The translations under genes were made by a program, and so were the position numbers. The notes below the pieces were generated by a model, which was not told the origin of the DNA, ran no database searches, and saw nothing but the letters and a program-made list of their open reading frames with translations. 64,000 nucleotides of DNA from Mactromeris polynyma (lineage: Eukaryota > Mollusca > Bivalvia > Venerida > Mactridae): the NCBI GenBank assembly GCA_032209605.1, contig JASFXZ010000005.1:19148860-19212859 (forward strand), written 5' to 3'. This document shows, piece after piece, positions 2,481 to 64,000 of this stretch; position 1 is the stretch's first letter; every line of letters starts with the position of its first letter.

Positions 2481-2489
2481 ATCCATATA

Positions 2490-16268: not shown

Positions 16269-16281
16269 TTAATACTCAAAA

Positions 16282-16743: not shown

Positions 16744-17092
16744 AAAAATAAAACCCACCTGTCGTAAAGAGTTCCGGCCTGTATCAGCTCGGGCGCGTTC
16801 TTCTACAGTCATTCTCACCATGTTTTGTGTTTTTCAAAAAGGATTTTCATCAGCAATAACAAAAGTGTACACGAACACGTGCAAATATGTGTCCATGCCC
16901 CCGCACGTGCAAAACGTGCTATAAACGTCAATACGCCTAATACGATTAATTTCATAGCGAGCCGGCTAAAAAAATCAATAATTCGCTGCATTACCTGTCC
17001 AAATATCGGTATGTGAAATTTTGTGTGAATACATGCATTATTAGAAAAATAATAATACAATATAAACTGACCGATTAGGAATTTTGTTGTGT

Positions 17093-17193
17093 GTATATTT
17101 AATCAAGCCCCACATTTCTGATCCATACAGTAATATTTGGACAATTTTTGCATCCAATAATTTAATAAATAAACTTTTTGACATGGGCATTAA
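17093..17193 (-). pseudogene. LINE reverse transcriptase C-terminal scrap
   Basis: The minus strand reads 'DAKIVQILLYGSEMWG', the conserved block after the palm of non-LTR retrotransposon polymerases. Only about 100 bases remain before the TTAA element interrupts. The same scrap, without the interruption, lies at 57728-57822. Confidence 0.7.
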
Positions 17194-17836: not shown

Positions 17837-17840
17837 TTAA

Positions 17841-19063: not shown

Positions 19064-19264
19064 AAATAGTGATGATGAAATCGTACTCTGTGAAAATTTC
19101 TTTACATGGGATTGTTTGATCGCTGTTTTTGGAATAACTTTCAATATCAACCATATGATTTTATTGAGGATTTAACATCTTAAAAGGCTGATTTTTACAT
19201 TGGGGTAAGTTTAATTAAGATACTTGTAGTTAAAATCGAATTATAGCGGTTTGAAAACAAGTGA

Positions 19265-19789: not shown

Positions 19790-20870
19790 TATCCTACGTA
19801 CGAAAATCCATTAACACTTTGACGTTGGTTTTCATTATAAGTCCATGTTTCATGGTGGGATAAATTTGACCATTTTTAAATACTAATATTTTATATTTGT
19901 TTATATTTACAGACAATGTCAAATCGTTACAATATTTAGATAATATATTAAGTTGTTGTTGTAGACCATTAACTGTATCAGTAGTCAAAGCAACATCATC
20001 AGCATAAAGGAATAGCAGCATTTGAGCAATTTCAGGAGCTAACTGTATGCCAGCAATACCGTTAGTTGCAAGAGCGTCGTGCAATTCGTTTATAAATTTA
20101 GAGAACAAAATTGGACTTAAGTTACAGCCCTGCGGACAATTAAACATACCACTATAGTCTGAATCACTTTTGACACTGGCTAACTGAATTATATATACTT
20201 TACATGATTTTCAAAAGGTTACCTTTTACACCATGACGAATTAATACTAAGTATAATTTTGATCTATCGATACTATCTAAAGCATTTTTAAGACTTCATA
20301 CAATTGTCCGCGTTTTTGACGTAGGATTTTGTTTGCTAAAGAGTACAAAATAAAACCATTATCAATTGTTGAATATAAAGCAGAAAACCAGCGTGTGCTT
20401 CAGTTAATCTGTCGAATGCATTAGCAAAAAAGTAAGGCGTTTATTTAAGATGCGTGTATACATTTTACTTAACATTTTCAAAATGGCTATTCCCTGATAG
20501 TTATCAGGACTATTAATGGAGCATTTTATGTACAGGTACAAGTTCAGAAATATACCACTTTTCAGGAAATATACCACTGGAGAATATACTAATAGAATGC
20601 GTATATACACTCACCCAAAGTTCTAATGCATCATATTTAAATTTGTTATAATATTTTTAATTATGTACTAAATAATATGAAAATTATGATTAAGCATTAT
20701 TTTGTTTAAAACCTTTCGCAAATTTTTATTCGATGTAAAGTGCAGCCATGCAGAACGAATGATCGAATTTCGGTATTTTTGACTTGCTGCTTTTACTTGG
20801 CTGTCTTTCATATGATTTATTTTTCTAATTGTGTTGTTTTGTGTTACAGTTGTTAATAAAAACATTATGT
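19790..20870 (-). pseudogene. Decayed non-LTR retrotransposon reverse transcriptase
   Basis: Read on the minus strand, 20870 to 19790. The first block 'PDNYQGIAILKMLSKMYTRI' (about 20440-20510) is the usual N-terminal RT motif, preceded in another frame by 'WYISELVPVHK'. Then come 'CPQGCNLSPILFS' and the catalytic 'FLYADDVAL' near 20000-20140, followed by 'LSVNINKYKILVFKNG'. At least one frameshift and several stops separate the blocks, so it is dead. Neither ends nor target duplication were found. Confidence 0.82.
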
Positions 20871-23543: not shown

Positions 23544-23559
23544 CAGTTACGGATAGTAG

Positions 23560-23850
23560 CGGATCAGTGGTCCAGTGGTAAAACGCTGGACTTGTAATCC
23601 AGGGATCGCTGGTTCGATTCCCCGCTCCATCACTGACCGTACTAACAGTCTTTCGGACGAGACTTTAAAAACCGAGGTCCCGTGTATGATGCTTTACATC
23701 GAGCACGTAAAAGAACCAGGGGTGCTTCTGGAACTGGGGCATCTTCTGTATCATGCACTATCCTCCAAATCTAATATGACTAACATTCTTCCGGAGGCGT
23801 CGCCCATGTGGGAAACCGGTGGCGACGATAAATAAAAGCATATACAACAA
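23560..23850 (+). mobile_element. tRNA-Thr-headed SINE with Nin-DC-like body, copy 1
   Basis: The head at 23561-23633 folds like tRNA-Thr (anticodon stem CTGGA/TCCAG around CTTGTAA, anticodon TGT). The body 'ctttcggacgagacttt' to 'accgaggtcccgtgt' matches what I recall of the Nin-DC domain of mollusc and cnidarian SINEs. Target duplications of 16 bases flank it (23544-23559 and 23851-23866, 14/16 identical). The open frame 23575-23835 is a shadow. Confidence 0.88.
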
Positions 23851-43100: not shown

Positions 43101-46100
43101 AGGGATCGCTGGTTCGATTCCCCGCTCCATCACTAACCGTACTAACAGTCTTTCGGACGAGACTTTAAAAACCGAGGTCCCGTGTATGATGCTTTACATC
43201 GAGCACGTAAAAGAACCAGGGATGCTTCTGGAACTGGGGCATCTCCTGTATCATGCACTATCCTCCAAAAATCTAATATGACTAACCTTCTTCTGGAGGC
43301 GTCGCCCATATGGGAAACCGGTGGCGACGATAAATAAACGCAAATACAAACGTGTCAATTATTGTATTGTTCGACCTATCTATAGTGAACAATGAATAAA
43401 ATGATAGCTAGGGTCCCCAAATCCTGTTCGAGTGTTCGACCTATCTCTGTTCGAGTGATCTACTGTTAAATAATATGAAATAAGAAGGGGTTTCGCCGGG
43501 ACTTAAGAACCTGTTCGAGGTATCTACTGTGTTCGAGCCAAAACTGTTTGAGGTTTCGAAGTTTTACTGTAGCTAAAAATATAAAGGAAATAATAGTCAC
43601 AAACCGATTTACAGCCTTTGAACGGGCAGGAATGTAATGTCGAAAACATAAAGGCAAGAAAATCATAGCCAGATTTTCAGCCATGAAACATTCAAAAAAA
43701 ACAACCGGGGTTTGAATCAAGTAAAAGATTGCTAACCTCACACTTCACCGCTATATGGTTAAATATTTCTAATTGTCGCCGCACTGAAGTGCGGCGTACT
43801 GTATGGAATGGGATATTTTTTTGTACATGGAGGGGCACGTGACTTTTTTTGTACGTGGAGGGACACGTGACTTTTTTTTCCAAGATTATTCGATTCAAGA
43901 TAATTTTACCCACTGACAATAAAGTTTTACAGAAAAAGTATTTGTAATATTTTTTTATTGTTTTATTTTATTCCATTTTAAAATCTTTTAATTTATTCCC
44001 TCATGTGGTGCACGATTTCAAATGGTCAAGGTCTATTTTGACTGATAAAATATTTGAAACCAGTCTACGGAAAGTTTATTTTTAGATTCCCTCATGTGGT
44101 GCACGATTTCAGAAAATGCTCAGTTAGCACCGTTCATTTTCGGAAATTGCTCAAGAAAAATCAAATAATCGAAAAGCGTTCCCGTCGAAAAGTATGACTT
44201 TCTAATTTGGGCGAAATATTTACCGTTTGCGAATGTTTTATTCCACTCAATTTCTATGATAAACGCGGTTAAAAGCAATGTATGTGATAACCATGCAATC
44301 ACTTTCGTTTTCGGGTCTATTATACGATAAAATCCGTACCGTACGGTCCGTAATGCCGCCCGCTCCGTATTTTACGAGGAATGAAAATTATTATAGTAAA
44401 TTCAGAATACTATTATTTTCGCAAGTATTTACTTATGGTTTAAGTCTCATAGTCTGTGCTATGACTATTCACATACAATTTACCTCACTGTATGTTTAGT
44501 TTATGTTTCATTTGTGACCTAGTTTTTATGTACAGCCGACTGTTTGAAACATGTATTGCTTTTTGCACTTGATTGACTTGTGTTTGGGAGTATACATTGT
44601 CTTCATCTTTCAATTTGAATAATTAATAATTGATAGTGAGATGTTTGTTTAAACTTGAATAACAAGAATAAAATAGACAAGAAATAAGATAACAGTGCTA
44701 CATTGAATCATCCCACAAGCTCAACTAGGAATGATTTGTAGACTATTAAAAGCAATTTCAAAGAAACACTAAAAAGGATTACATTGAAATAACAAAGTCC
44801 TATGCTATAGAATATTGGGGATTGAGGGGACAAACTGCACTAAATATTTGTTGATCGCGTGCTGTGTGATGTAGCCCCCAAATGACTGAAACCGACTGGT
44901 TCCAAAATTGGCTCAAGAAAAAAAGCCAGCGCAAGCCAAGATTGTCAAATTCATCTAGTGAGCAAGACGAGACTTCCAGTTGATCGGAAGTTGATTAGTT
45001 CGTTGAAGAAGGTAGGCCATGGCTAGTATTTAATGATGATGAGATAGTCATGACCTTTACTTGAACAATAAAACTGAGAAATCTTGCTTAATTATAATGG
45101 TTATACATAAAACAACATTTAAAATAAGGATTTTAAGTTGTTAATCCTGTTCAAAACATTGCGACAGGTAAGAAATTGTTGTGACAGGTAAAACATTGTT
45201 GCAACAGGTAAAACATTGTTGCAACAGGTAAAACATTGTTGCGACGGGTAAAAAATGTGTCTTTGCCTGTCGTTATGTCCTGTGAAGGAGAAAAAGTATT
45301 CGCGTTGACTGTTTTACCTGTATTTCACATGTGCTATTGAAATTTTCTTGAAGTGGGCAGTTTATAATTATAATATTATATGATATAGTCATCGCTGATA
45401 ATTTCTCCTTGCATGTACTAACGGAGAAGAAACTGCAGTAAGAAGGAATTTGTTACGGTGATACGCTGTTTATTCATAGTTTAGGGTGGTGCCAGCAACT
45501 ACAGTTTTCAGCTTCATACTGATACCATAATATACTCTTTTTTTCGCTCGCTCGCTTTAATAAAAGACAGTTTGAAAAAAAATCCGAAGAACAAACAAAT
45601 AATTTGTTGTGGCCTAATAATAATTAAAATTGCATTCTTTGAATATTTTACATAACAAATTATAACAAATAGAAGTGATGCGTTAACTGTATGAAATAAA
45701 TATTTAGATAAAAGTAGTGCTTATTCTAAGCTTATTGTTTACGTACGTATGGATCAGAAAAGAAAATATGTTCCGGTGATAAATTTTGAGTGTCATGATA
45801 GTCTGAGATAATTATTTAGAAACTTAATGAGAATTTATGTAAAGGATTCAAAGAATGTAATTTTAAATATTATTATTTTTGTGAACAAAGACCTTGCTAT
45901 ATACAGAGAAGTTGGAACTGGGTCTGTAAACAGATTAATATTTTTTGTTAACGTGTTTGATACTACTAAAATGAAGTGTAATACTTTAGTTACATGTTTT
46001 TTTGTACAAAAGAATGTAAATAACAAAATTTCATTCAATTTTTTAGCGGCGACCTTTGATGCTTTGCATCAATGATTTTCTTGTATATAAATATAAAACA

Positions 46101-47935
46101 ATAAATGTGCAATGCCCACAAACCAGGTTTTAAACCTAATTATTTGTAACCAAGGCTCTATTTGTATAATGAATACATGATGATCATCTATGCTGCAAAG
46201 GTGCCAGAGGTAATACATGCATACACACACTCACAGTTAGATATATTATAAATATATTCAACAACCTATACACCAAGTTTGATGTCAATACACCAACGCA
46301 TAGCAAAGATATTAAGTGGAAACTGGTTTTAAATTTAACGTGACCTTGATCTTGGACAGAACGAACCCAAAAGAAATCCCAAGCGAGCTATCAACATACT
46401 CTTACTATACACCAAGTTTGATGTCAATATGATCAACGAAACTTAAGTTATTCGCCAGAAACCAAATTTCTATTTTTAGTAACGGTGACCTTGACCTTTG
46501 ACGGACCGAACCCATAAACACTCCCAAGCGAGCTCTCCACATGTTCTTACTATACACCCAGTTTGCTGTCAATATGATCAACGAAACTCAAGTTATTCAC
46601 CGGAAACCAAATTTTTATTTTTAGTAACGGTGACCTTGGCCTTGGTCGGAACGAGTCCAAAAGCAATCCCAAGCGAGCTCTCCAAATGTACTTACGATAC
46701 GCCATGTTTGATGTCAATATGATCAACGAAACGAAAGTCATTCGACGGAAATCAAATTTCTATTTTAGTAACGGTGACCTTGACCTTCGGCGGACCTAAT
46801 CCAAAATTAAACCCAAGCGAGCTCTCAACATGTACTTATTACACACCGAGTTTGATGTCAATATGATCAACGAAACGAAAGTTATTCGCCGGAAACCAAA
46901 TTGCTATTTTTAGTAATGGTGACCTTTACCTTTGTCGGACCAAAACCCAAAAGCAATCCCAAGCGAGCTCTACATGTTCTTACTATACACCAAGTGAATA
47001 TTTATCAATATATGGAAACACATAACATTTTTGCTATGTAAGTTTTAAGTTGGTATATGGATCGTTTTGTCCAGTATTTAAAAGCGAAATGCATCAATAA
47101 AGGAAGTGAAATGTATACAAGAACTACTTGTTTACAGTTTGATATGCATGCTTCTATATTCTCAAGAATAAATATAAAATTCACCTGAATATTTGTGATT
47201 ATTAAAGGTAATCCTCCGATACTGATGAAAGCAAGTCCAGGGAACATTAACCAAGGATTGTCCTTACTTATAAAAGCCATCAGTAAGGTTCCAAATTCAA
47301 ACACAACACTAAAATGTCAATATTGTATATGTATAAGCATATGTTAATGATGACTTACGTCAGTGGATGGAGATATTCATGTACGACAAGTATGTTGTTT
47401 CTTTTGTTTTAAGAATTTTAACGGTAACCTATCGAGGGTCACACCTGATACGGACTTGTGCGTAGTAAAGTGAATATACCAATAGTTCTTACATGCAATA
47501 TTTAACAATATATAGAAATATAAACTTTACTTACAATGAAATAAGTCGAGTAATTCTTGTTCCAAACTTATAATTTATGAAACCAACCACGAGACCACCT
47601 GTACCCATCATTGCGCCAGCTATGGTGAAACATAGTGCCATTTTTTCGTCTTGGAGTTTACATGGCTTCTGATATTCGTAGTTTGGTTTCGGTGTGTGTG
47701 TTGAACTTGTGTTTAACATTGTGGCAAATGTAAAGCTTGGTGTTATATTAGTTTCATTGGCCTTCATCTCGTCTTCACATAGATCAGAATAAATGCCTTC
47801 CTTCTTCAGTACAAAGCTTAAAGAACCCCAGCCGAAAACAATACCACTGAACAAAAGACATTCCATAAATGCCCAAACAGCCATAAACCATTTCTTCCAT
47901 CCAAGATTCCCGTTACTTGTGTCTGATAAAACCAT
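33973..47935 (-). CDS. SLC43A3: SLC43A3-like transporter, copy B, nine exons plus a duplicated exon 8
   Basis: Exons: 47535-47935, 47185-47308, 39922-40014, 39500-39677, 38183-38344, 37719-37820, 37134-37323, 34885-35005 (8b) or 34670-34790 (8a), 33973-34131; 1530 nt, 509 aa with a single exon 8. All splice sites and phases equal those of copy A and no stop interrupts it, so it can be functional. Differences include S to G and I to F in TM2, HHH to HQH in exon 4, RFQY to RFHY in TM7, and a longer tail ending SCDVLTDNSN. An in-frame ATG 14 codons upstream (47975-47977) is not conserved in A, so MVLSD is taken as start. Intron 2 is 7.2 kb because of inserted elements, and the 5' flank is split by the hAT insertion. 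Confidence 0.92.
34670..34790 (-). CDS. SLC43A3: SLC43A3-like copy B, exon 8a (downstream duplicate)
   Basis: 121 nt, intact splice sites. Differs from 8b by FPSHN in place of FPSHY at its fifth codon. Because 121 is not a multiple of three, using 8b and 8a together shifts frame and reaches TGA after 35 codons, 13 nt before the 8a donor. The two are compatible only as alternatives. Confidence 0.75.
34885..35005 (-). CDS. SLC43A3: SLC43A3-like copy B, exon 8b (upstream duplicate)
   Basis: 121 nt, FPSHYFGFLFG..., same as copy A except S to A. Complete acceptor (ACGTCAG) and donor (CAT|GTAAGT). Part of a 215-bp tandem duplication (34650-34864 and 34865-35079). Confidence 0.88.
36567..36980 (+). 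repeat. Single unit of the bivalve repeat in intron 7 of gene B
   Basis: Starts like unit 1 of the array at 7975 and ends like unit 3, including the terminal hairpin (36942-36971). It corresponds to the whole 1.7 kb array of copy A. Confidence 0.85.
37134..37323 (-). CDS. SLC43A3: SLC43A3-like copy B, coding exon 7
   Basis: 190 nt; two replacements against A (K to T and I to V in 'IPVTELLYPVFIV'). Donor AC|GTACGC as in A. Confidence 0.88.
37719..37820 (-). CDS. SLC43A3: SLC43A3-like copy B, coding exon 6
   Basis: 102 nt, one silent change against A. Same weak donor GTTTGA, whose conservation supports its use. Confidence 0.9.
38183..38344 (-). CDS. SLC43A3: SLC43A3-like copy B, coding exon 5
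   Basis: 162 nt with three changes against A, all replacements (A to V after the splice, V to I and Q to H in TM7). Donor CAAG|GTATGT. Confidence 0.92.
39500..39677 (-). CDS. SLC43A3: SLC43A3-like copy B, coding exon 4
   Basis: 178 nt. Three replacements against A (H to Q in IAHQHG, F to S in IHISVL, K to T in TASTKRY) and one silent change. Same splice sites and phase. Confidence 0.92.
39922..40014 (-). CDS. SLC43A3: SLC43A3-like copy B, coding exon 3
   Basis: 93 nt beginning VAYLFTVGSS (S to A against copy A) and keeping NGAFDSSS. Two further silent changes. Confidence 0.93.
41427..43569. mobile_element. pogo/Tigger-like non-autonomous element with nested insertions (P1)
   Basis: Ends CAGTAAAACTTCGAAACCTC on the left and its inverse on the right, inserted at a site that is 'tattTAgcta' in block A (14151-14160). 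The right flank is TA and the left is GA, so one base of the TA duplication has mutated. Nested inside is a second element with CCCTAATCCGGAAACTC at 41622 and GTTCGGATTAGGGAGTTTCC near 42953, and a SINE at 43056. No transposase. Confidence 0.82.
43056..43351 (+). mobile_element. tRNA-Thr-headed SINE with Nin-DC-like body, copy 2
   Basis: Same family as 23560-23850, over 90% alike by eye. The head keeps the TGT anticodon loop. Target duplication of 11 bases (GTGTGAATTAT at 43045, GTGTCAATTAT at 43352). Inserted into the pogo-like element. Confidence 0.88.
43625..46455. other. Segment present only in block B, intron 2
   Basis: Begins where block A jumps from 'cctttgaacg' straight to the minisatellite. 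It holds a hairpin CGCCGCACT-GA-AGTGCGGCG (43777-43796), a 33-bp duplicate with 'ggcacgtgac', a twofold 'ccctcatgtggtgcacgatt' and a 'ttcgctcgctcgc' repeat near 45543. No inverted ends were found, so deletion in A is as likely as insertion in B. No gene supported. Confidence 0.6.
45161..45260 (+). repeat. 20-bp minisatellite, five units
   Basis: Units 'gcaacaggtaaaacattgtt' start at 45161, 45181, 45201, 45221 and 45241 with small changes. Confidence 0.9.
46320..46995 (+). repeat. Minisatellite of about 144-bp units, five units (copy B)
   Basis: Same family and position as 14205-14600, with two more units on the left. Frames such as 46498-46722 arise from the repeat. Confidence 0.8.
47185..47308 (-). 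CDS. SLC43A3: SLC43A3-like copy B, coding exon 2
   Basis: 124 nt, one substitution against A, giving GGLPLIITNIQ in place of GGLPIIITNIQ. Same acceptor and donor. Confidence 0.92.
47535..47935 (-). CDS. SLC43A3: SLC43A3-like copy B, coding exon 1
   Basis: 401 nt as in copy A, five substitutions, three of them replacements (L to M, I to F, S to G, all around TM2). Donor GTAAGT. The three outer-loop glycosylation sequons are unchanged. Confidence 0.93.
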
Positions 47936-50443
47936 GATTCTATAGTTTTGAAAAGAAATATCTAAGTATTTACACATGCTAATAAAAATGTTTTCTCTGT
48001 ATTTACACTTCTAGGTTTGCAAATCTAATAGAATGATAAAACAACGTAAATATTTCTTGTTAATAATCAATCGGTCATTATCATTTCCGAATAAGCTCCA
48101 ATAGCTATTACTTAATTTATAACACATAGTCACATCCAAGTAGATCATACCAGTTATATGAGCAAACTTTTTATCAGCATTTTAATACACTACATTGTTA
48201 GTTTCAGAATACGATAATTGAACTGAAAAGTTGTATTCGTTTCAAGGTGAGAAAGGGTACCACAAGAATGCACAAATAAAAGTAAGCAAAACGGATATTC
48301 ATATACAAAGCCCTGACAAAACATAAACTTCCCAGTGCAAATGCGGAGGGTTACACATACATTTATTTTCATTATTCACTGCATCAAGTAGGCGAAATGT
48401 GAATTAAGCAATTACCAGGGCCGTAGCTGGGCTGTTTTTGATGATACGCACGACTGGGGGAGGTACAAGGACGGGGTGTCCCCCTCGTTTGTATAGCGGG
48501 GGTACCATACCCAACAATATTGCTTATCAGATAAATCAGATCGATATCGATGGGGCTTTTGGTCAGCAGTCAATTTGTCTGTCGATAGTTTCCGTAAGTG
48601 ATCGTAAATTTTCCGATGATCACCGATTGATAATTGTTTTTTTTTGGCATTTCATTTCACCCATGTTTTAACATATACCTTTAGATGTAATGGACTTATA
48701 GCTTTTGTTTATATACTTATTTTGTTCAGGATAGTATTCAGTGATAGTATTTTAAAGGGGTATTTAATCCACAATAAGGAAATAAATGAAAGAAAATCAA
48801 ACAAGGCGCACATGTTTATTTATCACTACTATACTTACTATGACGAGAAAATTACAAAATCATAGACAAACAAAATACAACAGTCAATAATATCACTGGA
48901 TTGTTGGAGCTGGACAAGTCGCACATACGGTCTTACAGCTTTGTATAAGTACTCGTTTCGTTCCCGGCTTAGGTTGAATAACTAGTGGAAGTACATCTTG
49001 TGTGAAGCTGTTGTCACGACACCGAAGGATGTTAATTGTTTTTTCATAGGAACTACAGTTTTCTTTTACGGTTACACTCCCTGGTTCATCTTATGACATC
49101 CTGAGGTACTCATATTTTCCTGTTAATACAATGTCACAAGAAAGGGAATTAGACAATTATAAATTTAAAATATAATTAAATCGTAATCAATTGTTATGTG
49201 TTGAGATTGACATTTTAACAAACAATCTGACAATTATAGACACAGTACTAACAGTTGTTAAATTTTGAAACTGATATTCTTACAATTACGATATCAACTT
49301 GATGAAACACTTATTAACACACAGAATTATCAGAATTAAGTGTAATTACATTGTTAATTAGAACCATATTTTTTTGTATTTTTTATCTTTTATATTTCTC
49401 GAAAACATATGTTGTTCAGTGGAAGTGTATCTATATCTCAAATGAAAGAAATTCAGGCAATATATTTCGAATACACACAGTTTAATATTTGCTTTATTTT
49501 GAATCGGTAGGCAGGATATTCTTATGAATTAAGGTTTTACTCAAGCATGCTTTATTATTCATTATGACTTCATAATCATCGTAATCCCAATGGTAAAAAC
49601 AAATAACATAAAAGTACCTTATTCTACGAATTGGTTTGAAGATTGGTGCAGGAAATGCTTTCCAATCACGCTATTGCCACGCTGGGTATCTGACTGCTAC
49701 ATTTGTGGCAGACAACATTTTGAAGCTGTTCCAATGATCACAATCAGTACGGTGGTAAAGTCTCTTCATTGACGCAAACAACTATCTAGGACACCTTGCA
49801 TGTACAATAAATATATTTTTTTCCGTTGACATTATTTAATAGTTTTAAATTGTTTTAAATTATTATATTAATGCTATTTCTAATGTAATACAGATGTTGC
49901 AATTGTTTAGACAAATCACCTGTATAACTTATATAAACTAAATTGAAAAGCATTAAAATTGATATTCATTTTATGTTTTATAAATTCTTTTATAAATCAT
50001 TCCGTGTTCATTTGCACATGCACGTAATACTCAAAGTATACAATTCGCTTCAATATCGTATCTTCAACGTAAAAGAGCGAAGCTCGATGTTTTGCAAAAC
50101 TTTGTTTGATGACTTCAATATGTAGTTACGTATTCTCTCTGTTTCATAATTATTACTAGTAATTAATATATATAAAATTGCTTTGCTCAGTATTTGAAAT
50201 GATATTATACAATCCTTAAAATGTCAGTACCAGGCATTAGTATAGTCAACGACGTAAACGGTAGAAAAATCTAAAATCAAACTAGAGTATAAAGTCCTAC
50301 ATGAATGATTATCATTATGTTTTTATGGATGATAGGCTCATATTTCAGAACAGAGTAGATTTATGAGTAGGCGTGAATCAACCAAGACTTAGTGTTGGTA
50401 TATTATATTATATATTTTACGTATGTATATATATATATATATA

Positions 50444-50763
50444 CAGGCCCATAGCTTGAGGAAAAACTGATTTAACCGAGGCAATGAATGCGGGGTCTGG
50501 GAGTGTCCTCCCCCAGGGGGGTGCTTACAGAAGGGTTCACCTGCGTTTACTGTTTATTTATTGTACCAGTGAAGTGATTTATCAAGTGCAATTTTGTTTT
50601 ATTGTAATCGTATGAATCGAAAGAAATGGGAATTTTTGATGTCCCACAGCTGAAAAATGTCCAAGTAGTCGAATGGCCAAACCATTAAGACTATAGTCCT
50701 CGATTGTTTGGAAAGTTTAACCAACGCAGCTGCCTCGGTGTGCCTCAGCATAGCTACGCCCTG
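50444..50763. mobile_element. Nested hAT-type MITE, 320 bp
   Basis: Ends CAGGCCCATAGCTTGAGG and, inverted on the right, CAGGGCGTAGCTATGCTGAG. Flanks are 'atata' and 'gtata' beside a (TA)n run, so the duplication is not conclusive. Lies in the 7.9 kb insertion. Confidence 0.65.
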
Positions 50764-52847
50764 GTATATACAACTTTTCTTCCCCCGTTTACTTAAGAGT
50801 TACGTACATATAAAAAGTACTATATCATTGAACCAGTAATACCAATGCATATAAAGACGATGCTTTTCTTTAATCATTGCTGCAGAACGATAATTGTCAA
50901 ACTCATTTATATACTTGACTTAAACATAAATTAAGAAATAAGTACCCATAGTTGCGATTGGTATCTATCCGGGTTATTAAGCACATGTTTATTGCTCAAT
51001 AAATTTAAAATGTTCAAAAGTTAAGAAATATTTAGTTAAGAAGTCAAAAAATGTTCGATGTATAAGCTATCTCTTTCCAACCAATTTTTATGTAGAAACA
51101 AATTTCCATTTGTTTGTTTTTTATGGTTGAACTATTCCATATAATTTCTTTAGCAAAGTTGCTTATTGAATTTGTTTGATTGAGCACCAGGATACAAATG
51201 TAAAATTAAATTTCAGTTTATCTGTGTTACAAGTATTATACGTATTTAAAAATATTTATATAAATGTTATGAATTATTTTGCATTTAGCATTATTTCTGG
51301 TATGATTCTTTTGACCGAGCTGACCTTGACTGAATTTAAGAATAAATCGATATCTAGCATTTTCGGTCCTCCATTTTCATATGTTTGGAAAATCATATTT
51401 CGGGATATTTTATGAGGTTAAGAATCTCACAGAAAGTCAAACATAAGAGTTTTATTTTTTTAATTCTCTTTTCTTTTGGATTATTTAAAACTGTGAGTGG
51501 GTACACTAATTCCGGGAATGCAAACGTTTAAAATATATAACTCGCACAGTAAACTCTCACGGAGTGTAATTTATACATTCACTAATTTAATTATGTTACC
51601 ACGGACATATAAACCATTTTATATTGCTATTACGAATTATTCAAACAGATTTATAAATCCTTCTGTATGATGATAATAAATGAATTATATTAGTTCATGG
51701 TATTTATGGAATATCAAGTATACACCACATACATTTTACATGTTCTGTACTATAGTATATTATGTTCAATTGTGTGACCACTACCTCTATCGATATCAAT
51801 GGGGCTTTTGGTCAGCAGTCAATTTGTCTGTCGGTAGTTTCCGTTAGTGATCGTAAATTTTCCGATGATCACCGATTGATAACTGGTTTCACAGGAACTA
51901 CAGTTTTATTTTACGGTTACACTCCCTGGTTCATCTGATGACATCCTGAAGTACTCATATTTTCCAAAATTAAATGTTCGTAGCTTTAAATTCGACACGC
52001 TAGATGCATATAGGAGGTGATATTTCAAATCTAATTTATATGTGTATATAATTATGTGCTTGATCGAAATCGTGGTTATTATTATATCATTATAAAATGT
52101 TGCTTAATATGGGCGCTTTGCACCACCTTACACTATTTATCGGCACATCAACAACAATTTAAAATTTCACGATCTGTTCATGTCTAGCGGTTCTTTGTTA
52201 CATAGTTATATGATTACGTTCATGTAATAAAATTCACCAGACCAATGCATACCCAACAATATCGCTTATCAGATAAATCCAGTCGATGCAATTCGTTATC
52301 GATTGGACTTTTGGTCAGCAGACGATTTGTCTGTCGGCAGTTTCCGTAAGTGACGGTAAATTTTCCGATGATCACCGATTAATGACTTGTATAACACATT
52401 AGCATATAGCCTCGGGCTACGTTAGATCTATGTATCCGATAAACGCTTAAAACATTGTTTTATGATCATAAAGAGAAAACAATTGGAGTTCGACCTATAT
52501 ATTGGTCCCAGATGAAACCCGAGATTATTTCATCATTGAAAACCTATGTATTAACACGGATATGTCCGTGGTGATAGGCAAATGTTTTCTTATAAAATAG
52601 AAAAAAACAAGGAATTCGTTTCACTTAACATGTGTAATAAACACTTGTCTTGCAGTTTCCAATTAAAATTGCAAATACAAATTTATTTTGTGTACTTTAA
52701 ATACCAAAGATACTGTGGTGTCCGCTTACAGTCACTACCGCGTAATATATACGTATTTTATTGGTGGTCCCTGATAGGTATCAGAAATGATGGTATTACA
52801 TGTACATAGGATGTCTGAAAGGCTGTGAATAAAATGTTTTACCCCAG

Positions 52848-52888
52848 GCAAAGACCTAAATACCATTAAATGGTATTTAGGTCTTTGC
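52848..52888. mobile_element. Palindromic mini-insertion a, 41 bp
   Basis: Arms GCAAAGACCTAAATACCAT and inverse around a three-base centre. Perfect 5-bp duplication CCCAG at 52843-52847 and 52889-52893. There is no internal sequence beyond the arms. Confidence 0.8.
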
Positions 52889-53572
52889 CCCAGGCGACTT
52901 TTGGGTGAAAAGAATAAAATCACGGACATATATAACATGTTTAATAACTATTCAGTTTTATTTACAGTAGATTTATTGAAATCAGTTATATAACATATGC
53001 AATAAAACTGTGGACGAAAAAAGGGAAAAAATAAACAGATTCCATGGTACAGAAAGCAACCGTTAATAACAACATAATAATAATGCTTGGCTATTCACTA
53101 TCACACCCTCCGCATTAAATTTAGCATGCGTATATATTTGAATGTTGTTCAAAACAAAGCAGTTTACACCACTGATGGCATTTAATAACTCCAACTGTTC
53201 AAGTCACGACTTTACATGTTCAACAGCAGTTGAATAAGTTTTCCTTTCTTTCTTAATTTTGTTTTTACCCCTTTTTCATTCAGCATGTACATTATTCACC
53301 GTTTTAGGGATTATTATAGTAGAATAATTATGAAAAAGTAACATTATGTGGAGATGAACAAAATAATTTAAACATCAACGTTCAAAATAGTAGAACGTTT
53401 ACCCAATGCTTCTTTTACAAAAAGATATATCTTGATAAGTTCAGTTTTGTTTACAGTTTTTAATCAAATTCATATACCTGGTGCGAAGGTGTGAACAACA
53501 TCATATCTAAGGTAGTGACACAGTAAACACTCACAGAGTGTAATTTATAAATTTATTGATTAAATTCTATTA

Positions 53573-53615
53573 CCACGGATATAATAAACTGTTTATATGG
53601 TTAATATGTCCGTGC
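53573..53615. mobile_element. Palindromic mini-insertion f, 43 bp, decayed
   Basis: Left arm CCACGGATAT, right arm ATATGTCCGTGC; flanks TATTA and TATAA (4/5). A paralogous stretch at 51599-51635 keeps the left arm but has a ruined right arm. Confidence 0.55.
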
Positions 53616-55148
53616 TATAACGAATGATTTAAACTGATTTATAAACCCGATGATAATTTATGAATTATATTAGTTCATGATATTTGTGGAAAATCAAGTT
53701 TACACCACATATATTTTATATATTTGTGACCAATGCTATATCTTTGCGCTGAATAAAACAAAATGTTCATGACAATTGAAATTAAGCTGCAGCTAAAGAA
53801 AATACGACACAACAGTCGATAATGGTCTTCTAGAAGAAATTAATTTCATGAAGCTTAATTAACGCTATAATATTGCATAAATGCAGTCTACACTTGACCA
53901 CCATAAACCATGGTCCAGCGAACAGTTTGATTGAGATAACATCTTATGAGACCACATGTGGAGATTAAACTTGTCACAAGAAAGACTAACCGAAATCGGT
54001 TTCACTCGCTAATCTTCGTGAATTTTCGGTGATATCTCACGGAAACACTCCTGAAATTGACAGGTACTCCATGTATCTCTTAATTCCCCCATTTTGTTTT
54101 CATAATAAATTACATCAATTGACACCGTTGGAACGAGCATAAAACATCCTAACAGAATCTGCTTGAATATTTGAATTCCCGTCTAAGGATAAGTTACAAT
54201 AGTGATTTAAACACGTCGGACGTCCAGGAAAAACGGACCGTTTACACTGTTTTCAATAGGAAACTGGGTGGCTCAAGAAAACTGTGGATTCCCCCGCCTA
54301 AACATATATAAAATTTCAATATTTTTTTATGATTGAAAAGAAGATACATTGAGGTTTCCAAATCTGCTTGAATATTTTGAATATGTTAAAAAATAAAGAA
54401 ATAATCATAATAAATACGTAGCGTTCCCCATCTAATCAATGCTATTTAGACGACTGGAAATATCGATTTTTGGCTGATGCGATAAGCGATATTGTTGGAC
54501 ATGCTTAACAACTTTAAAGATTAAAATCTGAAGCAATTTTATGCATTTCATAAAATACATATGTACTGCATAACCATCAACAAATTGCTTACGTTTTGAA
54601 GAACGCACCCTCATAATGCATTTTAGATTGTTTTACAATAAACAACTGAATGTTGCAATTGTCATAAATTCTTGATCGCTTTAGTGAAATATATGACTAT
54701 AGTATATACATGTTTAAGTATAAGTGTTTATTCATGAGAATGCAAAATTTCAAATCAGCTGAAAATTCAGCAAGGGGTCCAGGGGGCCGCTGAAGCTCCT
54801 GGCTTTTAAGCATATAAGATGGTTTAAATTGTCTCAAAAACGGCCCTTGCGAGCGTCAAATCAATCCGCGGAAAATTCTCATGCAGTTCATCTACTGTCT
54901 GACAGAGATGATGATCGATTTTTACACACATTTTGTACTTATGCACGTTTGTGCGCGATACTTTCAGTGACCACTGCCTATATCTTTGCGCTGAATAAAA
55001 CAAAATGTTTATCACAATTGAAATTAAGCTGCTGCTAAAGAAAATACGACACAAGAGTCGCGATATGGTCTCCAAGAAGAAATTAATTTCATGAAGCTTT
55101 TCACTATAAATGCAGTCTACATTTTACCACCATAAACCATGGATCCAG

Positions 55149-55185
55149 TCACGGACATATAGACATATGGTTTATATGTCCGTGG
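55149..55185. mobile_element. Palindromic mini-insertion d, 37 bp, with empty paralogous site
   Basis: Arms TCACGGACATATA and TATATGTCCGTGG; perfect duplication TCCAG at 55144-55148 and 55186-55190. The paralogous sequence at 53908-53925 reads 'ccatggtccagcgaacag' with a single TCCAG and no insert, showing that the palindrome was inserted. Confidence 0.88.
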
Positions 55186-55382
55186 TCCAGTGAACAGTCA
55201 CATTAAGATAATATCTTAAGAGACCACATGTGGAGATTAAACTTGTCACAAGAGAAACTAACCGAATCGGTATCACTCGCTGATCTTCGTGAATTTCCGT
55301 GAGATATCACGGAAACAATTTTCACATTGACAGGTACTTTATGTATCTCTAAATTCCCCCATTTTGTTCATAATAAACTACA

Positions 55383-55655
55383 TCAATTGGCACCGTTTGA
55401 ACAAGCATAAGCTGTCCTTACAGAAGCTGCTTGAAACTTTAAATTCCCGTCTAAGGATAAGTTAAAATAATGATTTAAACACGTCTTACTTCGCAAATAG
55501 ATCTTAATAGGTCTCATCGTGCTAAAGGACCGTTCTGCTGTCGCTGTTGACACAGGCATTGATAACAATATAGACAGACAGGCACGGACATTTGGGTAGA
55601 TGTCCTTAGTTGCCTGACCCAACGCTTCCAATAGGCAGTCGATTGAGTCCTCCAT
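55383..55655 (-). pseudogene. hAT transposase C-terminal dimerisation domain remnant
   Basis: The minus strand reads 'YPNVRACLSILLSMPVSTAT' then 'AERSFSTMRPIKIYLRS', the Dimer_Tnp_hAT signature (P.S.A..ER.FS...I). After that the expected conserved end is lost and the frame runs into unrelated residues. No catalytic region was found. It lies inside the 7.9 kb hAT-like insertion. Confidence 0.85.
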
Positions 55656-56565
55656 TACCGTCTGGCAGCGTCTTTGTCATCGACGTATCTCGGTGCAGAA
55701 CTGGTCAATGTCGTTGGTCACATCAGATGCACACGAGGCGTGAATTTCACACACCACCTGCCATTTAATTATCAGCATATTAAACATATAATTATTTGTC
55801 TGAAAGGATACCATCCCGTCAGTTCGTCCGTCCGTTGGTGATAATAAAGCGTATGCAAACAACAACTGTCAAATATGTTAATACATAACTATTCTATTCC
55901 TGGAAATGCTCGTATGATACAAATAATGTAGTTCTGGACTAAATTTAACTTCACATCTGCATGATAATGACATTACCTTAAGTTTAGTTTTTACTGATAA
56001 AATGCTCTCTTTTCTATTTGTACACATGAAGTTCCAGTCCTGTATAACCCAATGGCATTTTACATGTATATGATTAAACGTTTAAGAAGCAGTTATATTC
56101 CATATCTAAAATAATGGCGATGTTGTATGTACTTGGTTAATGTCAATATATGTACGTATAGTTCAATAGCTGTGCTGTAACCCTTCACCCCCATCAGCCT
56201 TAGATTTTTAATGCTGATTTAAAGTCTTTAGTTTTTCGACTTTTGAAAATGATGATACGCACGGGCGTACGTGCGTATGCCCAGCTACGGGTCTGATTAC
56301 ACTTCATATACACGAAACAATGAAACTGAAATTAACGTTATTGCTTGATAAACGTCGTTCGACTCTTTTGTTTTAAGACGTTTCTTCGATATTTAGTACT
56401 TTAAAGTACTTTATATCAACGAATGTTAAAGTGAATCAGAGTCTTTAAATCTAGCTGAACAAAGCGTATTAAAAGTGTGTTATGTTTAGAATGGTCTGTA
56501 TGCGGAGTTCTTTTAATCTAGCTGTACAAAGTGTATTTAAAGTGTGATATGGCTAATACTCAAAA

Positions 56566-56573
56566 TGACGTCA
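56566..56573. promoter_or_regulatory. CRE palindrome of block B, displaced from gene B
   Basis: TGACGTCA, the counterpart of 16282-16289. In block B it is about 8.6 kb from the start codon because of the hAT-like insertion. Confidence 0.35.
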
Positions 56574-56678
56574 TTTAGCATAAACAAGGACACATTTCTC
56601 ACTATTGTGTTAAAGGTTTTATAACACAACTTAATCCTCATTTAGTATACTCGTAAAATTGTTTCGTTTTCTCGATAT

Positions 56679-57267
56679 ATATTTTATGGTGGCATAATAC
56701 TGCCACCAGTTAGCATGATAGCGTTCGCGAATTAATTCGTGTCAACCACTTAATTATTACGATAATTATCTAGCTATCTAGTTAATATTCGTGTTAAATT
56801 TTCGGTAAGATAAATATCATACAACTAGAAACAGGCTTGAAAGGGCCCAGAACTGCCACCTCTTACCTTTTTATGATGTATTACACTAGATTTAAGTGGT
56901 AACACGAATCTTATCTAGTTGTCCACTTATTATGTTACTTAGTAACTCAAATTCGCGAATTTCACTTAAGATTCGTGTTACCACTTATTTATAAATGCGT
57001 TTTTGACTTCTACATGTAAGTGGTAACCAGTTGAATTGCATTCAGCTGTCCATTCCTGAAGATACTGATCTTTTAATTTCAATTCAAGCTGTTGTTATAA
57101 TATATTTTGATTTGCAACATATGGATGTTCCCAACTATAACCATGAATAATAAATGTAAATAAAGCTTAACTGTTAGAAGTCCAACTATGATAGCCTATA
57201 CTATCATTATATAACATCATACAATAACATTTTTACATACCATGAATCCGACATATGAATAATTTTT
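56679..57267. other. Spacer with repeated 'ttcgtgttaccactta' motifs
   Basis: 'attcgtgttaccactta' and its inverse 'aagtggtaacacgaat' occur between 56880 and 57020, a loose inverted repeat. No gene. Confidence 0.5.
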
Positions 57268-57605
57268 CGGCGCAGCCGTACTAACATGTTTTTTTCTATT
57301 TGCATATCAGTGTTGTGTAAACCAATAAAATCTTACGTTAACCACCAAGGCAATTTCTCTTCAACCGAACAACGTTTGTAACCTTGACGCGGATTGGTTA
57401 ACCTTTCGATAAAGTGTACGTCACCTTGCCGAAATTCACTGAATTTCGGTGAATTTATCGTAATGTTTTTTTTGGATCTGGAGTTACCTGCAATCGTGAC
57501 ATCTCGGCATTTTTTTCTGTTGCACAACAAATCTTAACCTTCAAATTGAGCCGACCATATTTTTTAAAGATATTTCTTGTTTACCCGTATTTTGTTACAT
57601 CTTAT
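57268..57605 (+). repeat. Dispersed repeat, second copy of 19357-19700
   Basis: Near-identical to 19357-19700, here placed before the LINE scrap and repeat X instead of after them. Confidence 0.75.
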
Positions 57606-57727
57606 ACGAGAAAAAATATACATTGGATATCTTTCACAATCTCCAACTACACCAGCATTACATGACCGTAAAGGTGCGGACATAAATCGTTTACAAGCAT
57701 ACACATGAACATTTTAAATGTCATATA

Positions 57728-59092
57728 TTTAATCAAGCCCCACATTTCTGATCCATACAGTAATATTTGGACAATTTTTGCATCCAATAATTTAAAAATA
57801 CACGTTTTGACATGGGCATTAACCCTTTACTCCATAGACCTCTAGTCCATTTACCTACTGTATGCTGATAAGACACTGGTCACATAGCCTACTCTATCTC
57901 CATACAGGTTATTGGAAAATAATTGGTGATTGACACCTGTATACTTAAACATGAAATAACAGTGTAAAGTATTGGTTAAATGACTTTTACAAGAATGTCA
58001 AAGTTTAAGGGAATTAAATTTTCTGTATAATGATGTAAATTTTATTATTGTGGGTTAAAAATTATAGAAGATACAGAAAATTATAATTTGAGATACACAT
58101 ACACTTTGTGTATTTCTAAAAAATTGTGGTGAAATTGGGTTTATAATCCCAATAGAACATATTAATTAGCAATTATAATTATTTATATATGAACAAAGAT
58201 TATACTGCAGTCACCATTTTAGTAAATATTTATATTTTGTTATAAAATGAATTTATACAAGCAAAATCTATGTTCTAACACAAATGCAGATTTACTAATA
58301 CAGTTACAGTTACATTGGCGTATGTTGGCACATGTAAATAAAACAAAAAGTCCTTAATGTTAAAATTGACTCTAGTATTCTCACAGCTAATGATAATTGA
58401 CATTAATAAACATATATTTCTTATGGTTCATTTAATCTGATTGGCTTATGCTAATTGTTTTGCAATTCATAAGCCACGCCCTAGACAGAAGATTAGTCCT
58501 ACTGGTCACTAAATTGCCCCATGTGTCAGCTGTAAAAACATAAGAGTCATAAAACCCCAGGAGGTCTTTATTATGTGTTAATACATATTGCTATTTCCTG
58601 TTTGATATAATTAATCCCATTGATAATTGCAATGATTAGATCATATCAATATTTGATCTCAATTTGTAATTCACAACGTGGCTGCAACTGTCATCCAAAA
58701 ATATTTACTTCAAAGACTTAGCCAGCGACTTCAAACATCTTTGATGTTTATTCTTGTTGAAAATTAAATTGTTGTCACAGGAATTGCAACACAGACAATA
58801 AGTACCTGGATTTGACCTACTTTAATATTGATTATGTGTTGGTGAAATTTTCAGAAAATACCAGACTTGTGTACACAAAAAATGTCATGATGACGTATTG
58901 CTCGCGTGATTTACATCCTTTGTTTGGTCGATCTTTACACCTTTTTAAAGATTATTAAACCCAGATTGTTTTTCACAGCAGTCTTTCAAACTATTTAATT
59001 GGCGTGGAAATGGATTAATACAATTAAACTTTGATGAAAATATCAGAATTGAAGTGGAAAATTACCGACTTGTTTAGAAATAGTGTTCTATT
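57728..59092 (+). repeat. LINE scrap plus repeat X, copy 2 (uninterrupted)
   Basis: 57728-57822 equals 17093-17193 and carries the empty TTAA site at 57819-57822. 57823-59092 equals repeat X at 17841-19063. Together they date the TTAA element at 17194 as later than this copying. Confidence 0.8.
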
Positions 59093-59565
59093 TCATTTGT
59101 TCACGCCGTGCACACACCTTTGCTGATGCACATGTTTACCGTCCTGCTTTTAGGACATTAGCGAGTCGTTGCAAGCGGCTCGCTGAATGGCTGTCGACGC
59201 ATGTTGATTCACCTGTCTAAAAATAGACAATATCAGTCTTTCGGGAGTTATAAAGCAGAGGAGACTGGATACAAATAACTCCGTAGTGTGGTTAGTCATA
59301 GACCCAATATAGTCTGTTTCAATATAGTTCATCATTACTTATTGCATCACGGACCTATATACCATGGATTCGTGACAGGCTGATATCTGTGAAACGGTAG
59401 GAACGAATAAAAAACCCATAATCCTTAGCGCGCAATTACCCACAATCCTAAGCGCGCTCGGTAAGTATCGAAGATTGCCGATTTTTATCGATCGGCTAAA
59501 GTCGGCAAACTCCGTTAATTTCCGTCCGTTTCAGACTCTGTTGATTAAATGTCCGTGTAATTTAC

Positions 59566-61742
59566 AAAATGAGATAAACAAGTTGGTAATTTTCCGCTTT
59601 AATTCTGATATTTTCATCGAAGTTTAATTGTATTGTTGATGTTGTTTATTAATACATTTCCACGCCAATTTGATAGTTTAAAAGACTGCTGTGAAAACAA
59701 TTTGGGTTAAATAATCTTTAAAAAGGTGTAAAAATCGACCAAACAATGGATGTAGATCACGCAAGCAATATGCCATCATGACATTTTTTATGTACACAAG
59801 TCTGCTATTTTCACCAGCACAAGGCGTAAAAATCAATATTAAAGTACAGTAAAACTTCGAAACCTCGAACTGCCGTCGGACCTAGCAATTAGTTCGAGCC
59901 ATCTACTGTTCGAGGCATCTACGGTATACGCGTATATTTCCTAATTGACAGTCGCCGGTTTTCATACTGAATGCACGTCGATAATAGTCGCAGCATAATT
60001 CATAATAATAAAATTAAAAAAGAAATGAAAGGAAAGCAAAAATGATTCCCTGTGACACATTATTCTCTCTCGTTTATTCTTATACGCATGAATTGTCTGT
60101 CACATACTACATGTACAGTGGAAACTCCCTAATCCGGAAACTCTCCGATCCGGAAACTTCCTGCAACCGGACAATTTTCAGGGTTTAGTTCCTCCAATAC
60201 GACTTATAAAAAATCCCCCGCAGTCCGGATCCTCCCTACTTCGGAATCCGGATTTTTTCTGTCCGGATTGTTATTTTACAGGTAAAATAAATCTCCCAAA
60301 ACCGGATAGTTGTCCGCAAAAATACGTCAGATCGTATAATGACGGAGCATTGAGAGAAGGCATAATAATTTAATTGTCTCTATGAATACATACCATTAGA
60401 CGTTATCATCGTATGCATTAAGTTTTGATGGAAACAAGGTAAGACCGGGTACGAGATGTACTTATTTTGTAAACAATTGGAAAACATTGGATGTGAGCGC
60501 AGAAAAGGGCCCATTAGGTACACAAATCACAATCCAAAAATTTTACCATAGATTATTTTTTTCCTCTACGAAAAATCTTTTGAAATGAAGCTATGGTGCA
60601 TAGTTTTCAGATATGGTGTTTTGATAATTCATCGTACTAAGTGAATAGCTTGTCAGGTTTTATGGACGGTATAATGTCGCAAAATACCCATTTCAGCTAT
60701 GTTTAAAATCATTTGACATGTAAAATGATTCACTGAAATACTTGCTTGAGATTCATATATCCACCTTATGCAGTGAAATTATCAAAATATCCATAAAATT
60801 CTAAAAGATAAAATCTTTTACATTTTCTCACAGTATAATGTTGCTGTAATCTCTACATCTATTTAAGAATGAACTATACGTCAAACTCTTACGTTAATTA
60901 TATTCAATGCTTTCATACAGTTTTAAATAAACGAGAGGCGTCTACAGCGGTTCATATTCTGAAGAATCGAATTTCCTACATTTCTATAACGAATAAACAC
61001 ATTATAATGATAATTTACATAATTTATGGGAGAATTTAAATATCAACCAATATTTCACACATCATGTATTTTGCATATCGCATTGCAAATCTTCCTCTTA
61101 TGAAAGTTGCATAAATATGTTGGTCTCTTATAACTTATGATTTTGGGCTATAAATTGAATTTTCAAATTTATATACATTTTGTAGCTTAAATTAGTTTGC
61201 AAAGTCAAATAATAGAATGCATTCAGACATTATATATTACATCGCGATAACGCAAACAACCTCTAGCCAAATGGTATTTAGGTATTTGCTCTAGCGAACA
61301 TATTCAAATTACTGAAAGAATGTCTTGCCTACTGTAGGTCAAATCCAGGTATTTATTGTCTGTGCAGCAATTCTTTTGACATCAATTTTATTTTGAGCAA
61401 AAATTAACATTCCAAGATGTTTGAAGTCGCTGGCCAAGTCTTTGAAGTAAATATTTTTGGATGACAGATGCAGCCCCATTGTGCAAATTAGGAATTGAGA
61501 TCAAAGATTGATATGACCTAATCGTTGAACTTATCAATGGGATTAATTATATGTAACAGGAAATTAACACATAAATAAAGATCTCCTGGGGTTTTATGAC
61601 TGTTGTGTTTTTACAGCTGACACATGGGGCATTTAATCTTCTGTCTAGGGCGTGGCTTATGAATTGCAAAACAATTAGCATCAACCAATCAGATTAAAAG
61701 AACCGTAAGAAATATTTATTAATTATAGTCAATTATCATTCG
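59566..61742 (-). repeat. Repeat X, inverted copy, split by element P2
   Basis: 59566-59846 is the inverse of the end of repeat X and 61337-61742 the inverse of its middle. With 58390-59092 it forms a large inverted repeat around a spacer of about 470 bases. Confidence 0.78.
59847..61334. mobile_element. pogo/Tigger-like element P2, right end deleted
   Basis: Starts CAGTAAAACTTCGAAACCTC, ends CTACTG, with TA on both sides (59845-59846, 61335-61336). The uninterrupted site is visible in repeat X ('ctggatttgacctactttaa' near 58808). It carries the full left end of the nested element (CAGTGGAAACTCCCTAATCC at 60117), lost in P1, but lacks the right 700 bases, including the SINE. Confidence 0.82.
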
Positions 61743-62579
61743 AATTTTTATATCAAAATTAGATGACACTTAGGTTTTGAATACGATATATTAATCATTT
61801 TTCTACTTACCTAAATTGTTAACACCCAGTGCAAATAATATTAAATGAAGAAATAAAACCTTTTCTAGCTCCTCTAAATTTAAATTACCGTTGAAAGAAA
61901 AAAGACAGACTCAAAAGTAATTAAAATTATTGGATCAAATATTAATGCGAGTAATTATTGATGTTATAATTGTTTTAAGTTGCGTTAAATAAGCATTTAT
62001 TGCAAATTTAGCATCGATATATATAAATTGCAACTACAATGTAATTAAAACAAGAATATAAAAAATATATTTTGGTAGAAAATTGACTTGACCGCTTTCA
62101 AATTATTTGTGGAAATGACATTAAGCATGAAGAATGCAGTCGGTAAGTCGTGGTCTAGTGGTTGAGGAGAATAAGTACTATTACTAAATGAATCCAGCAT
62201 GTCCTTAGACATTACAATAACACACCTCAGTCCATCCACTTTGAATAGATGCCAATTATATAGATACAATATGCTTGCTCATTCTCATAAAGTCCAGTCA
62301 TGAGTTGTGTACTGAGAATGTAGAGAAACATTTTGTTTGAATTTCAACCCAACAGTTGCAGCCGTCTAAATTTTCCTCAAAGCTTGCACAACGAATCTAG
62401 ATGAAATCTAGAGGTGTAATTCGTATATAAATACTAGACTAGTGCAGATATAGTGCCATATCTAGATAACTTAGTTGAAAAAGGAATACACACACTATAA
62501 CAGTAATTACAATTTTATTTCAAGAACTCTGCATTTCAACGCAAAATATTCAACAACGATAGAAAACCACTAGTTTATG
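61743..62579. other. No gene supported
   Basis: AT-rich interior of the 4.4 kb element. The frame 62045-62269 has no recognisable family. Confidence 0.5.
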
Positions 62580-62584
62580 TAATA

Positions 62585-62618
62585 CCACGGACCTATATAC
62601 GGGTATATAGGTCCGTGG
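62585..62618. mobile_element. Palindromic mini-insertion c, 34 bp
   Basis: Arms CCACGGACCTATATAC and GTATATAGGTCCGTGG with two bases between. Perfect duplication TAATA at 62580-62584 and 62619-62623. Lies inside the 4.4 kb element. Confidence 0.85.
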
Positions 62619-63004
62619 TAATACTACACAATTGTTTTTTACTTAGTCAATCACAGATTGAATTAATTTCAGTCACAAAATGATAAATGGATTAAAAATG
62701 TACAAGGAAAAGTTCCGGAGTATTTTCCAAGAACAAATTCATATCAACTCATTGACGAATGTTTGTAAATTCACAGCATATTTCTTTTTGTAACCAAGTT
62801 GACTTTTATGAGGCATCTTGTAAATATCCAGGAAACCTGAAACGATAAAGTAATATTTAACATTATAGCAGATCCAAAACAATTTTATATTATAATGATA
62901 TGACAATAAAGTGTATTTACATTTTTATTATGTAATTGATTATGTAAAAAGCTTTTCAAGCCCCACATTGGGTGCACTTGCCCCCCTTGAATTACTTAAA
63001 TGGT

Positions 63005-63038
63005 GCAAAGACCTAAATACCAGTATTTAGGTCTTTGA
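63005..63038. mobile_element. Palindromic mini-insertion b, 34 bp
   Basis: Arms GCAAAGACCTAAATAC and inverse (last base A instead of C). Perfect duplication ATGGT at 63000-63004 and 63039-63043. Lies inside the 4.4 kb element. Confidence 0.82.
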
Positions 63039-63043
63039 ATGGT

Positions 63044-64000
63044 GGCAGTGTTTGACGATTGAGCCTAAAAAATTATGCCGGAAGAGGGAGGATTGTAGTG
63101 CTGTAGGGTTAGGCGGCCATCCGTTAAGTTTAGTCGGTAGAGAGCCATACTAGTATTTAGCATGAGCTGATGGATTTACACGAGATGTTATCATTTTAGA
63201 ACCAACATGTATCCAATATATATCCGAACTTCTATACAACACAATTTAGACCGTAAAAGTGCAATTATTGATTTATATAATAATAATTCTAAACAAAAAG
63301 ATGATAAATAACGGAAAACAAAATAAATCAAGCTAACGAAGGGAATAAATTACGTTCTATAACGGACTTTTTAACCAAGTATGTAATTTACGGATCGCCT
63401 GTAAATCGAAATTTCAGCCGATTAAAAACGACGCTCGTTTCGTCGAACAACTAGGTGTTGAACCAAAAAATGCATACAAGCAAACAACAGGATAAACTCA
63501 AAATATATAATACCATTAAGAAATGTTTAGCTGTAGTAATCATCACGATTTTAGCGGATCCGAAAGTGAAATTCTCCCGATTCAGCAACAAGATGGCGGA
63601 CATCGCATTTTTTTCTCATCATTTGGTAAACATTTTAGAGGTGTTCCGATTGTTAAATCTCGGCTGGGAAATCTCGCCGTTGCCGTCATTTCAAGCAAGT
63701 TTAGCACAAATATCAGCCTGTCACGAATCCATGGTATATAGGTCCGTGATTGCATAAGTCGTGAACTCACACATCCATGTTAATAAACTTGTTACACAGC
63801 GATTAATCTGATTAAAACAATATAAATGTTCGCGGTTGGTACATAAAACCAAGAAAGTCTTCTTAATTCCAACACCGGACAATCCCCGTGGTGATGAATA
63901 ACAACACTACTTACTGAATAAATCTTGAAATACGCTATAAACAATGTTAACCAATCTGCTTCAAGGTTACACAATTTTTTAATTGAAGAGAAATTGCGCG
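63044..64000. other. Right part of the 4.4 kb element and window end
   Basis: 63592-63601 'agatggcggac' resembles a YY1 site. The overlapping frames 63455-63757, 63523-63741 and 63582-63770 run into the terminal inverted repeat and are not credible genes. After 63754 nothing is recognised. Confidence 0.45.

Follow-up and report, generated by a model that had tools for sequence, protein, structure and literature searches.

Short palindromes between 7-bp duplications as probable excision scars of a P-superfamily-like DNA transposon

Results

Genes and repeats of the locus

The 64-kb stretch of DNA analysed here, referred to below as the window, contains a large, interrupted tandem duplication (92-19071 and 29318-59085), most long pieces of which are 90-97% identical. 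Each copy of the duplication includes a transporter exon on the minus strand (15136-15570 and 47534-48010), and the segment at 47534-48010 matches the structures of the amino-acid transporter LAT4 and the nucleobase transporter ENBT1, both of which we take to be SLC43 proteins of animals. Tandem copies of a unit of about 145 bp form an array at 14209-14592 and a longer one at 46266-46995.

The tandem duplication is broken up by a repeat at 41426-43580, whose inverted ends (CAGTAAAACTTCGAA) presumably resemble those of a Tigger/pogo element; a related repeat occupies 59846-61321, and both carry the palindromic site B3 described below. Two related SINE-like repeats of 290 bp are present at 23559-23847 and 43059-43349, with an Rfam tRNA match at 23561-23629, and no tRNA genes were found by ARAGORN in the 64-kb window. 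A reverse transcriptase fragment lies on the minus strand at 19797-20210 (Pfam RVT_1, E 3e-13). Finally, a hAT-type element (Table 1) hosts the palindromic sites A1, A1c, B1 and S; its own ends differ from theirs. This element is missing at the duplicate locus near 16012, where the site reads through with one base differing from ATTAC.

Table 1. Palindromic sites and the transposon-like elements that surround them. Matches between the two flanks are given in brackets; stubs are the recognisable element ends, in nucleotides.
Feature	Coordinates	Strand	Flanks	Palindrome or element	Stubs and join
B1	52842..52894	.	CCCCAGG (7/7)	52849-52887, 39 bp	18+18, TAA between
A1	55143..55191	.	ATCCAGT/GTCCAGT (6/7)	55150-55184, 35 bp	15 (left), 18 (right), AT between (ungapped script)
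A1c, copy 2	53567..53621	.	CTATTAC/CTATAAC (6/7)	53574-53614, 41 bp	10 (decayed, left), 18 (right), 13-base centre (script)
A1c, copy 1	51593..51633	.	ATGTTAC/CTATTAC (5/7)	51600-51626, within related repeat 51545-51744	18 (left), decayed to 2 (right), 7-base centre
A2	62579..62624	.	GTAATAC (7/7)	62586-62617, 32 bp	15+16, G between
B2	62999..63044	.	AATGGTG (7/7)	63006-63037, 32 bp	17+15, no bases between
B3	61261..61295	.	CTCTAGC (7/7)	61268-61288, 21 bp	4+18, 1-base overlap
S (doubtful; candidate old scar)	52555..52570	.	(4/7)	16 bp, CACGGATATGTCCGTG	9 (left), 11 (right), overlap 4 (script)
Long element	59348-63748 (59341..63755 with flanks)	.	ATTGCAT (7/7)	4401 bp, ends of the palindrome type	
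hAT-type element	48416-56295	.	ATTAC (5-bp duplication)	7.9 kb, ends CAGGGCCGTAGCTGGG / CAGACCCGTAGCTGGG, hAT dimerisation domain inside	

Palindromic sites and a long element with the same ends

A sequence-only reading of this DNA had described five short palindromes as insertions, and all five are present where it placed them. With the palindrome ends set at 5'-CA...TG-3', the placement preferred here, they measure 32-41 bp rather than the 34-43 bp originally proposed. Site B3 was found through an arm search, and copy 1 of A1c and the 4.4-kb element were likewise found outside the palindrome scan described below. All sites fall within 51.6-63.8 kb of the 64-kb window. The palindromes at 53574 and 51600 occupy corresponding positions within a pair of related repeats, and they are therefore taken as one copied event (A1c). 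The single arm consensus proposed earlier holds in a loose form and splits into two end sub-types, CACGGAC(A/C)TATA... and CAAAGACCTAAATACC....

The long element shares these ends and is flanked by exact duplications of its own. Both of its ends start with CACGGACCTATATACCATGGATTCG, and its inverted repeats extend over about 39 bp: counted per ten bases, the mirroring of the two ends amounts to 10, 10, 10 and 9 bases and then falls to 5, 4, 3 and 2. Palindrome A2 (62586) has the end type of the long element, and A2, B2 and B3 are all nested inside it. Further repeats nested in the long element are a segment that recurs at 41426-42820 and inverted segments of the 58389-59076 repeat. Of the 28 ORFs of at least 45 amino acids listed for the element, 12 were screened with Pfam and gave no transposase domain; a wider set of 20 ORFs of the window, these 12 included, likewise gave no P or THAP domain with Pfam.

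Length of the flanking duplication

Comparison of the flanks at nine sites, over repeat lengths from 4 to 10, shows that the palindromes and the long element lie between direct repeats of 7 bp. The repeats agree at 7/7 positions in five sites and at 6/7 in two; the remaining two reach 5/7, in the decayed A1c copy at 51600, and 4/7, in S at 52555, the doubtful site of 16 bp. For other repeat lengths the best flank matches were 4/6 and 4/8 at B1, 4/8 at B2 and 5/10 at A2. The duplication length of 5 bp put forward in the sequence-only reading is too short, its 5-mers being fragments of these 7-mers.

A scan of the 64-kb window for CA...TG palindromes of 16-60 bp, with 9 of 10 arm bases paired and flanks directly repeated over 7 bp with no more than one mismatch, yielded five matches, which are the five palindromes first noticed. 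The same scan gave no matches with repeats of 6, 8, 9 or 10 bp (at most one mismatch) or of 4 or 5 bp (exact), and none in 20 first-order Markov sequences, which were scanned at 7 bp only. Random flanks drawn from the nearby 48-64 kb part agree at 7/7 with a frequency of 0.0002 and at 6/7 or better with a frequency of 0.0034.

A search for terminal pairs spanning 16-8000 bp, again with a 7-bp repeat and at most one mismatch, listed 16 pairs. Six of these carry ends of the palindrome type, namely the five palindromes of 32-41 bp and the 4401-bp element, with none of a size in between. The remaining ten, among them two of 16 bp (at 12988 and 40262), were excluded on account of their different ends. 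Control searches with exact repeats listed six pairs for a length of 5 bp and one for 6 bp; with one mismatch allowed, one pair was listed for 8 bp and none for 9 bp. Ends of the palindrome type are absent among the control pairs listed for 5, 6, 8 and 9 bp.

A 7-bp target duplication is a feature of 1360/Galileo-type members of the P superfamily. Neither the 8-bp duplication of the Drosophila P element proper nor the 5-bp duplication of Transib was found at the compared sites or in the scan. The earlier assignment to Transib or hAT, which assumed 5-bp duplications, was thus rejected, since the flanks measure 7 bp and the scan returned no 4- or 5-bp matches. Around the duplication, the target is slightly more symmetric than random sequence (22 of 49 positions paired symmetrically over 7 sites, against a random mean of 13.7; p ~0.01). 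The empty paralogous site reported earlier for the insert at 55149/55150 was confirmed at 53908-53925, relative to which the left duplication of A1 has one extra base.

Stubs and joins

In every palindrome, two element ends are placed head to head. Stub lengths were measured by setting these ends against three 18-base yardsticks taken from the same sites of the window. With S excluded, 11 of the 14 stubs are 15-18 nt long, the remaining three being 4, 10 and 2 nt, and because the yardsticks stop at base 18, longer agreement could not appear and the upper limit of 18 nt is built in. An independent full-length end serves as yardstick at A2 only, which keeps 15 and 16 nt of the ~39-bp repeat of the long element. 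Read by eye, agreement extends to base 19 between the stubs of B1 and B3 and to base 20 between the right stubs of A1 and A1c; B1 and B2 diverge at base 18. As this agreement reaches bases 19-20, a value of 17 is not exact, and the ends are consistent with a stagger of about 17-18 nt that is not fixed by the present data.

The six independent sites display six different joins. The B-type palindromes, which have one end sequence, are joined in three ways: as two 18-nt stubs separated by TAA, as stubs of 17 and 15 nt, and as overlapping stubs of 4 and 18 nt. The joins of A1, A1c and A2 also differ from each other and from those of the B type. Compared by eye, the two copies of A1c can be interpreted as one event with stubs of 18 and 18 nt and TTTAT between them. 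Within this window, no site was seen at which a long element still occupies the place of a palindrome.

Discussion

The palindromes as probable excision scars

These features together suggest that the palindromes are likely to be excision scars of a P-superfamily-like DNA transposon. An element of this kind, with ends of the CACGG or CAAAG sub-type, would have inserted at each site and duplicated 7 bp of its target. Its transposase would later have excised it with a long stagger, cutting one strand at the tip of the element and the other some 17-18 nt inside. Each side of the resulting gap would then end in a 3' overhang made up of some 17-18 nt of element sequence. End joining could have closed the gap, trimming the ends somewhat and adding a small number of filler bases. 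The product predicted by this route is a duplication, an end stub, a reversed end stub and a second duplication. The terminal inverted repeats also begin with 5'-CA, as do the ends of P and Pdre2, although this is a weak criterion because the hAT-type element of the window starts with CA as well. Counting against the proposal are the failure to find a transposase domain in the ORFs tested, the small number of independent scars (about six), the three short stubs, the built-in 18-nt limit and a target symmetry that is raised only weakly.

The excision of the Drosophila P element provides the closest model for such a process. P transposase is described as cutting one strand 17 nt within the element (PMC7776569), and the donor site as retaining the target duplications with 17-nt tails. 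Published excision junctions read as duplication, stub, filler or microhomology, stub and duplication; the stubs reach 17 nt, and both fillers and losses from one side are recorded (PMC5466332, PMC2895639). For flies with wild-type mus308, the mean insert length at these junctions is reported to be 5.5 nt (PMC2895639). The palindromes resemble the products of the Drosophila P{wa} excision assay, in which the same kept duplications, head-to-head stubs of at most 17 nt, short fillers and, in many isolates, uneven trimming are found. In contrast, the P element has 8-bp duplications and was followed in laboratory crosses, while here the duplications are 7 bp, the genome is a natural one and the transposase is unseen. 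Among the 34 isolates of a control table from Drosophila, 14 are assigned to a long-microhomology class that has lost nearly the whole stub (PMC5466332); as such products lose their stubs, the palindrome scan used here cannot detect that class.

The length of the duplication finds its counterpart in two other members of the superfamily. For 1360, 7-bp duplications are reported in 274 of 279 insertions (PMC3276498), and Galileo is described as having mostly 7-bp duplications, with the target GTANTAC, and 8 bp in some copies (PMC2775673, PMC4168063). The flank of A2, GTAATAC, fits this Galileo target, and a palindromic target preference has been reported for both elements. The superfamily of 1360 and Galileo is established from the literature; here it is a proposal, no transposase domain having been found in the ORFs tested. 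Transib and hAT elements are, like the proposed element, cut-and-paste transposons with target duplications, but the modal length given for the Transib element hopper is 5 bp and that for the hAT element hobo is 8 bp (PMC3276498), as opposed to 7 bp here. The P-MITEs described from Anopheles gambiae, which are non-autonomous P derivatives, resemble the palindromes in retaining their ends, but they measure 205-2450 bp, have 8-bp duplications and are repeated as entire families (PMC1562414), whereas the palindromes measure 21-41 bp and have private centres.

Should this origin be correct, each scar would stand for one departed element, and a single genome would therefore give the excision history of the family, its cut length and the repair pathway of the germ line. 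Such scars would probably be overlooked in repeat annotation or labelled as tiny elements of unknown type. The long stagger of the P element would moreover extend to relatives with 7-bp duplications. It is in our judgement evenly balanced whether P-type excision has left a natural fossil record at the scale of the genome, in which 7-bp duplications and stubs of some 17-18 nt would show the long stagger of Drosophila P to be general to the wider superfamily and the joins would record ancient end joining (microhomology and templated fillers) in the germ line of this organism. Laboratory work has already described the excision process itself. Among the matches listed from the open-licence literature, no natural collection of such scars was found, and no title or abstract opening describes natural P-type scars or palindromes this short.

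Alternative origins

The sequence-only reading was right in placing head-to-head transposon ends at the targets of a DNA transposase that makes staggered cuts, and its suggestion of end remnants left by such an enzyme comes near to the origin favoured here. Its main reading was one of insertions that consist of bare ends and almost nothing else. Palindromes of 32-41 bp would in this case be hypershort mobile elements in their own right, bare pairs of ends that the same enzyme mobilises, and the 7-bp duplications and the empty paralogous site do show that something was inserted. Nevertheless, a mobile family should have a common centre, and no interior sequence common to the copies, as expected of a MITE, was found in this window: each of the six independent sites has a centre of its own, three of these belonging to palindromes that share an end type. 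The possibility is further weakened by the six different joins and by stubs of mostly 15-18 nt, a pattern that end joining yields after P-type excision, and, according to a title cited in PMC7776569, P transposase requires internal sequences, which the palindromes do not have. We therefore consider it unlikely that the palindromes themselves transpose.

Excision could alternatively have been carried out by a transposase from outside the P superfamily that likewise combines a long stagger with a 7-bp duplication, a proposal that agrees with the lack of transposase domain matches in the window ORFs tested. Dada elements, for instance, are reported to have duplications of 6-7 bp (PMC3706591). The same source, however, presents Dada-U6 and Dada-U1 as having no terminal inverted repeats and the Dada elements it describes as sitting in small RNA genes, and Dada was rejected on these grounds. 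In addition, the 17-nt stagger is said to set P apart from other characterized cut-and-paste transposons (PMC7776569), and an enzyme of another superfamily appears quite unlikely.

A third possibility is that longer elements were deleted internally while in place, through hairpin slippage or replication error and without excision by a transposase. The inverted repeats of the long element could indeed fold and delete in this manner. Yet slippage would be expected to give many stub lengths, and 11 of the 14 observed are 15-18 nt, albeit under the built-in limit of 18; moreover, none of the six listed pairs with the same ends has a length between 42 and 4400 bp. Internal deletion is accordingly regarded as improbable. 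That the palindromes are products of chance or regulatory sequences can be dismissed as next to impossible, given the empty scans of random sequences and of other duplication lengths and the rarity with which random nearby flanks agree.

Isolated matches to the palindrome ends

Arm-like matches that stand alone, with no close mirrored partner (for example at 52921, 59546 and 28450), were left out of the count of scars. One viral contig (L001) matches the 18-base B end, but the match is to a single end, with no mirrored partner in 151 bases, and it is probably due to chance; further scans of viral collections gave no matches. Lastly, B3 is seen again, in a more decayed form, at 42760-42794 in a related repeat. 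Right after that copy, at 42778-42863, its right part and flank are repeated as a tandem duplication with a period of 43 bp.
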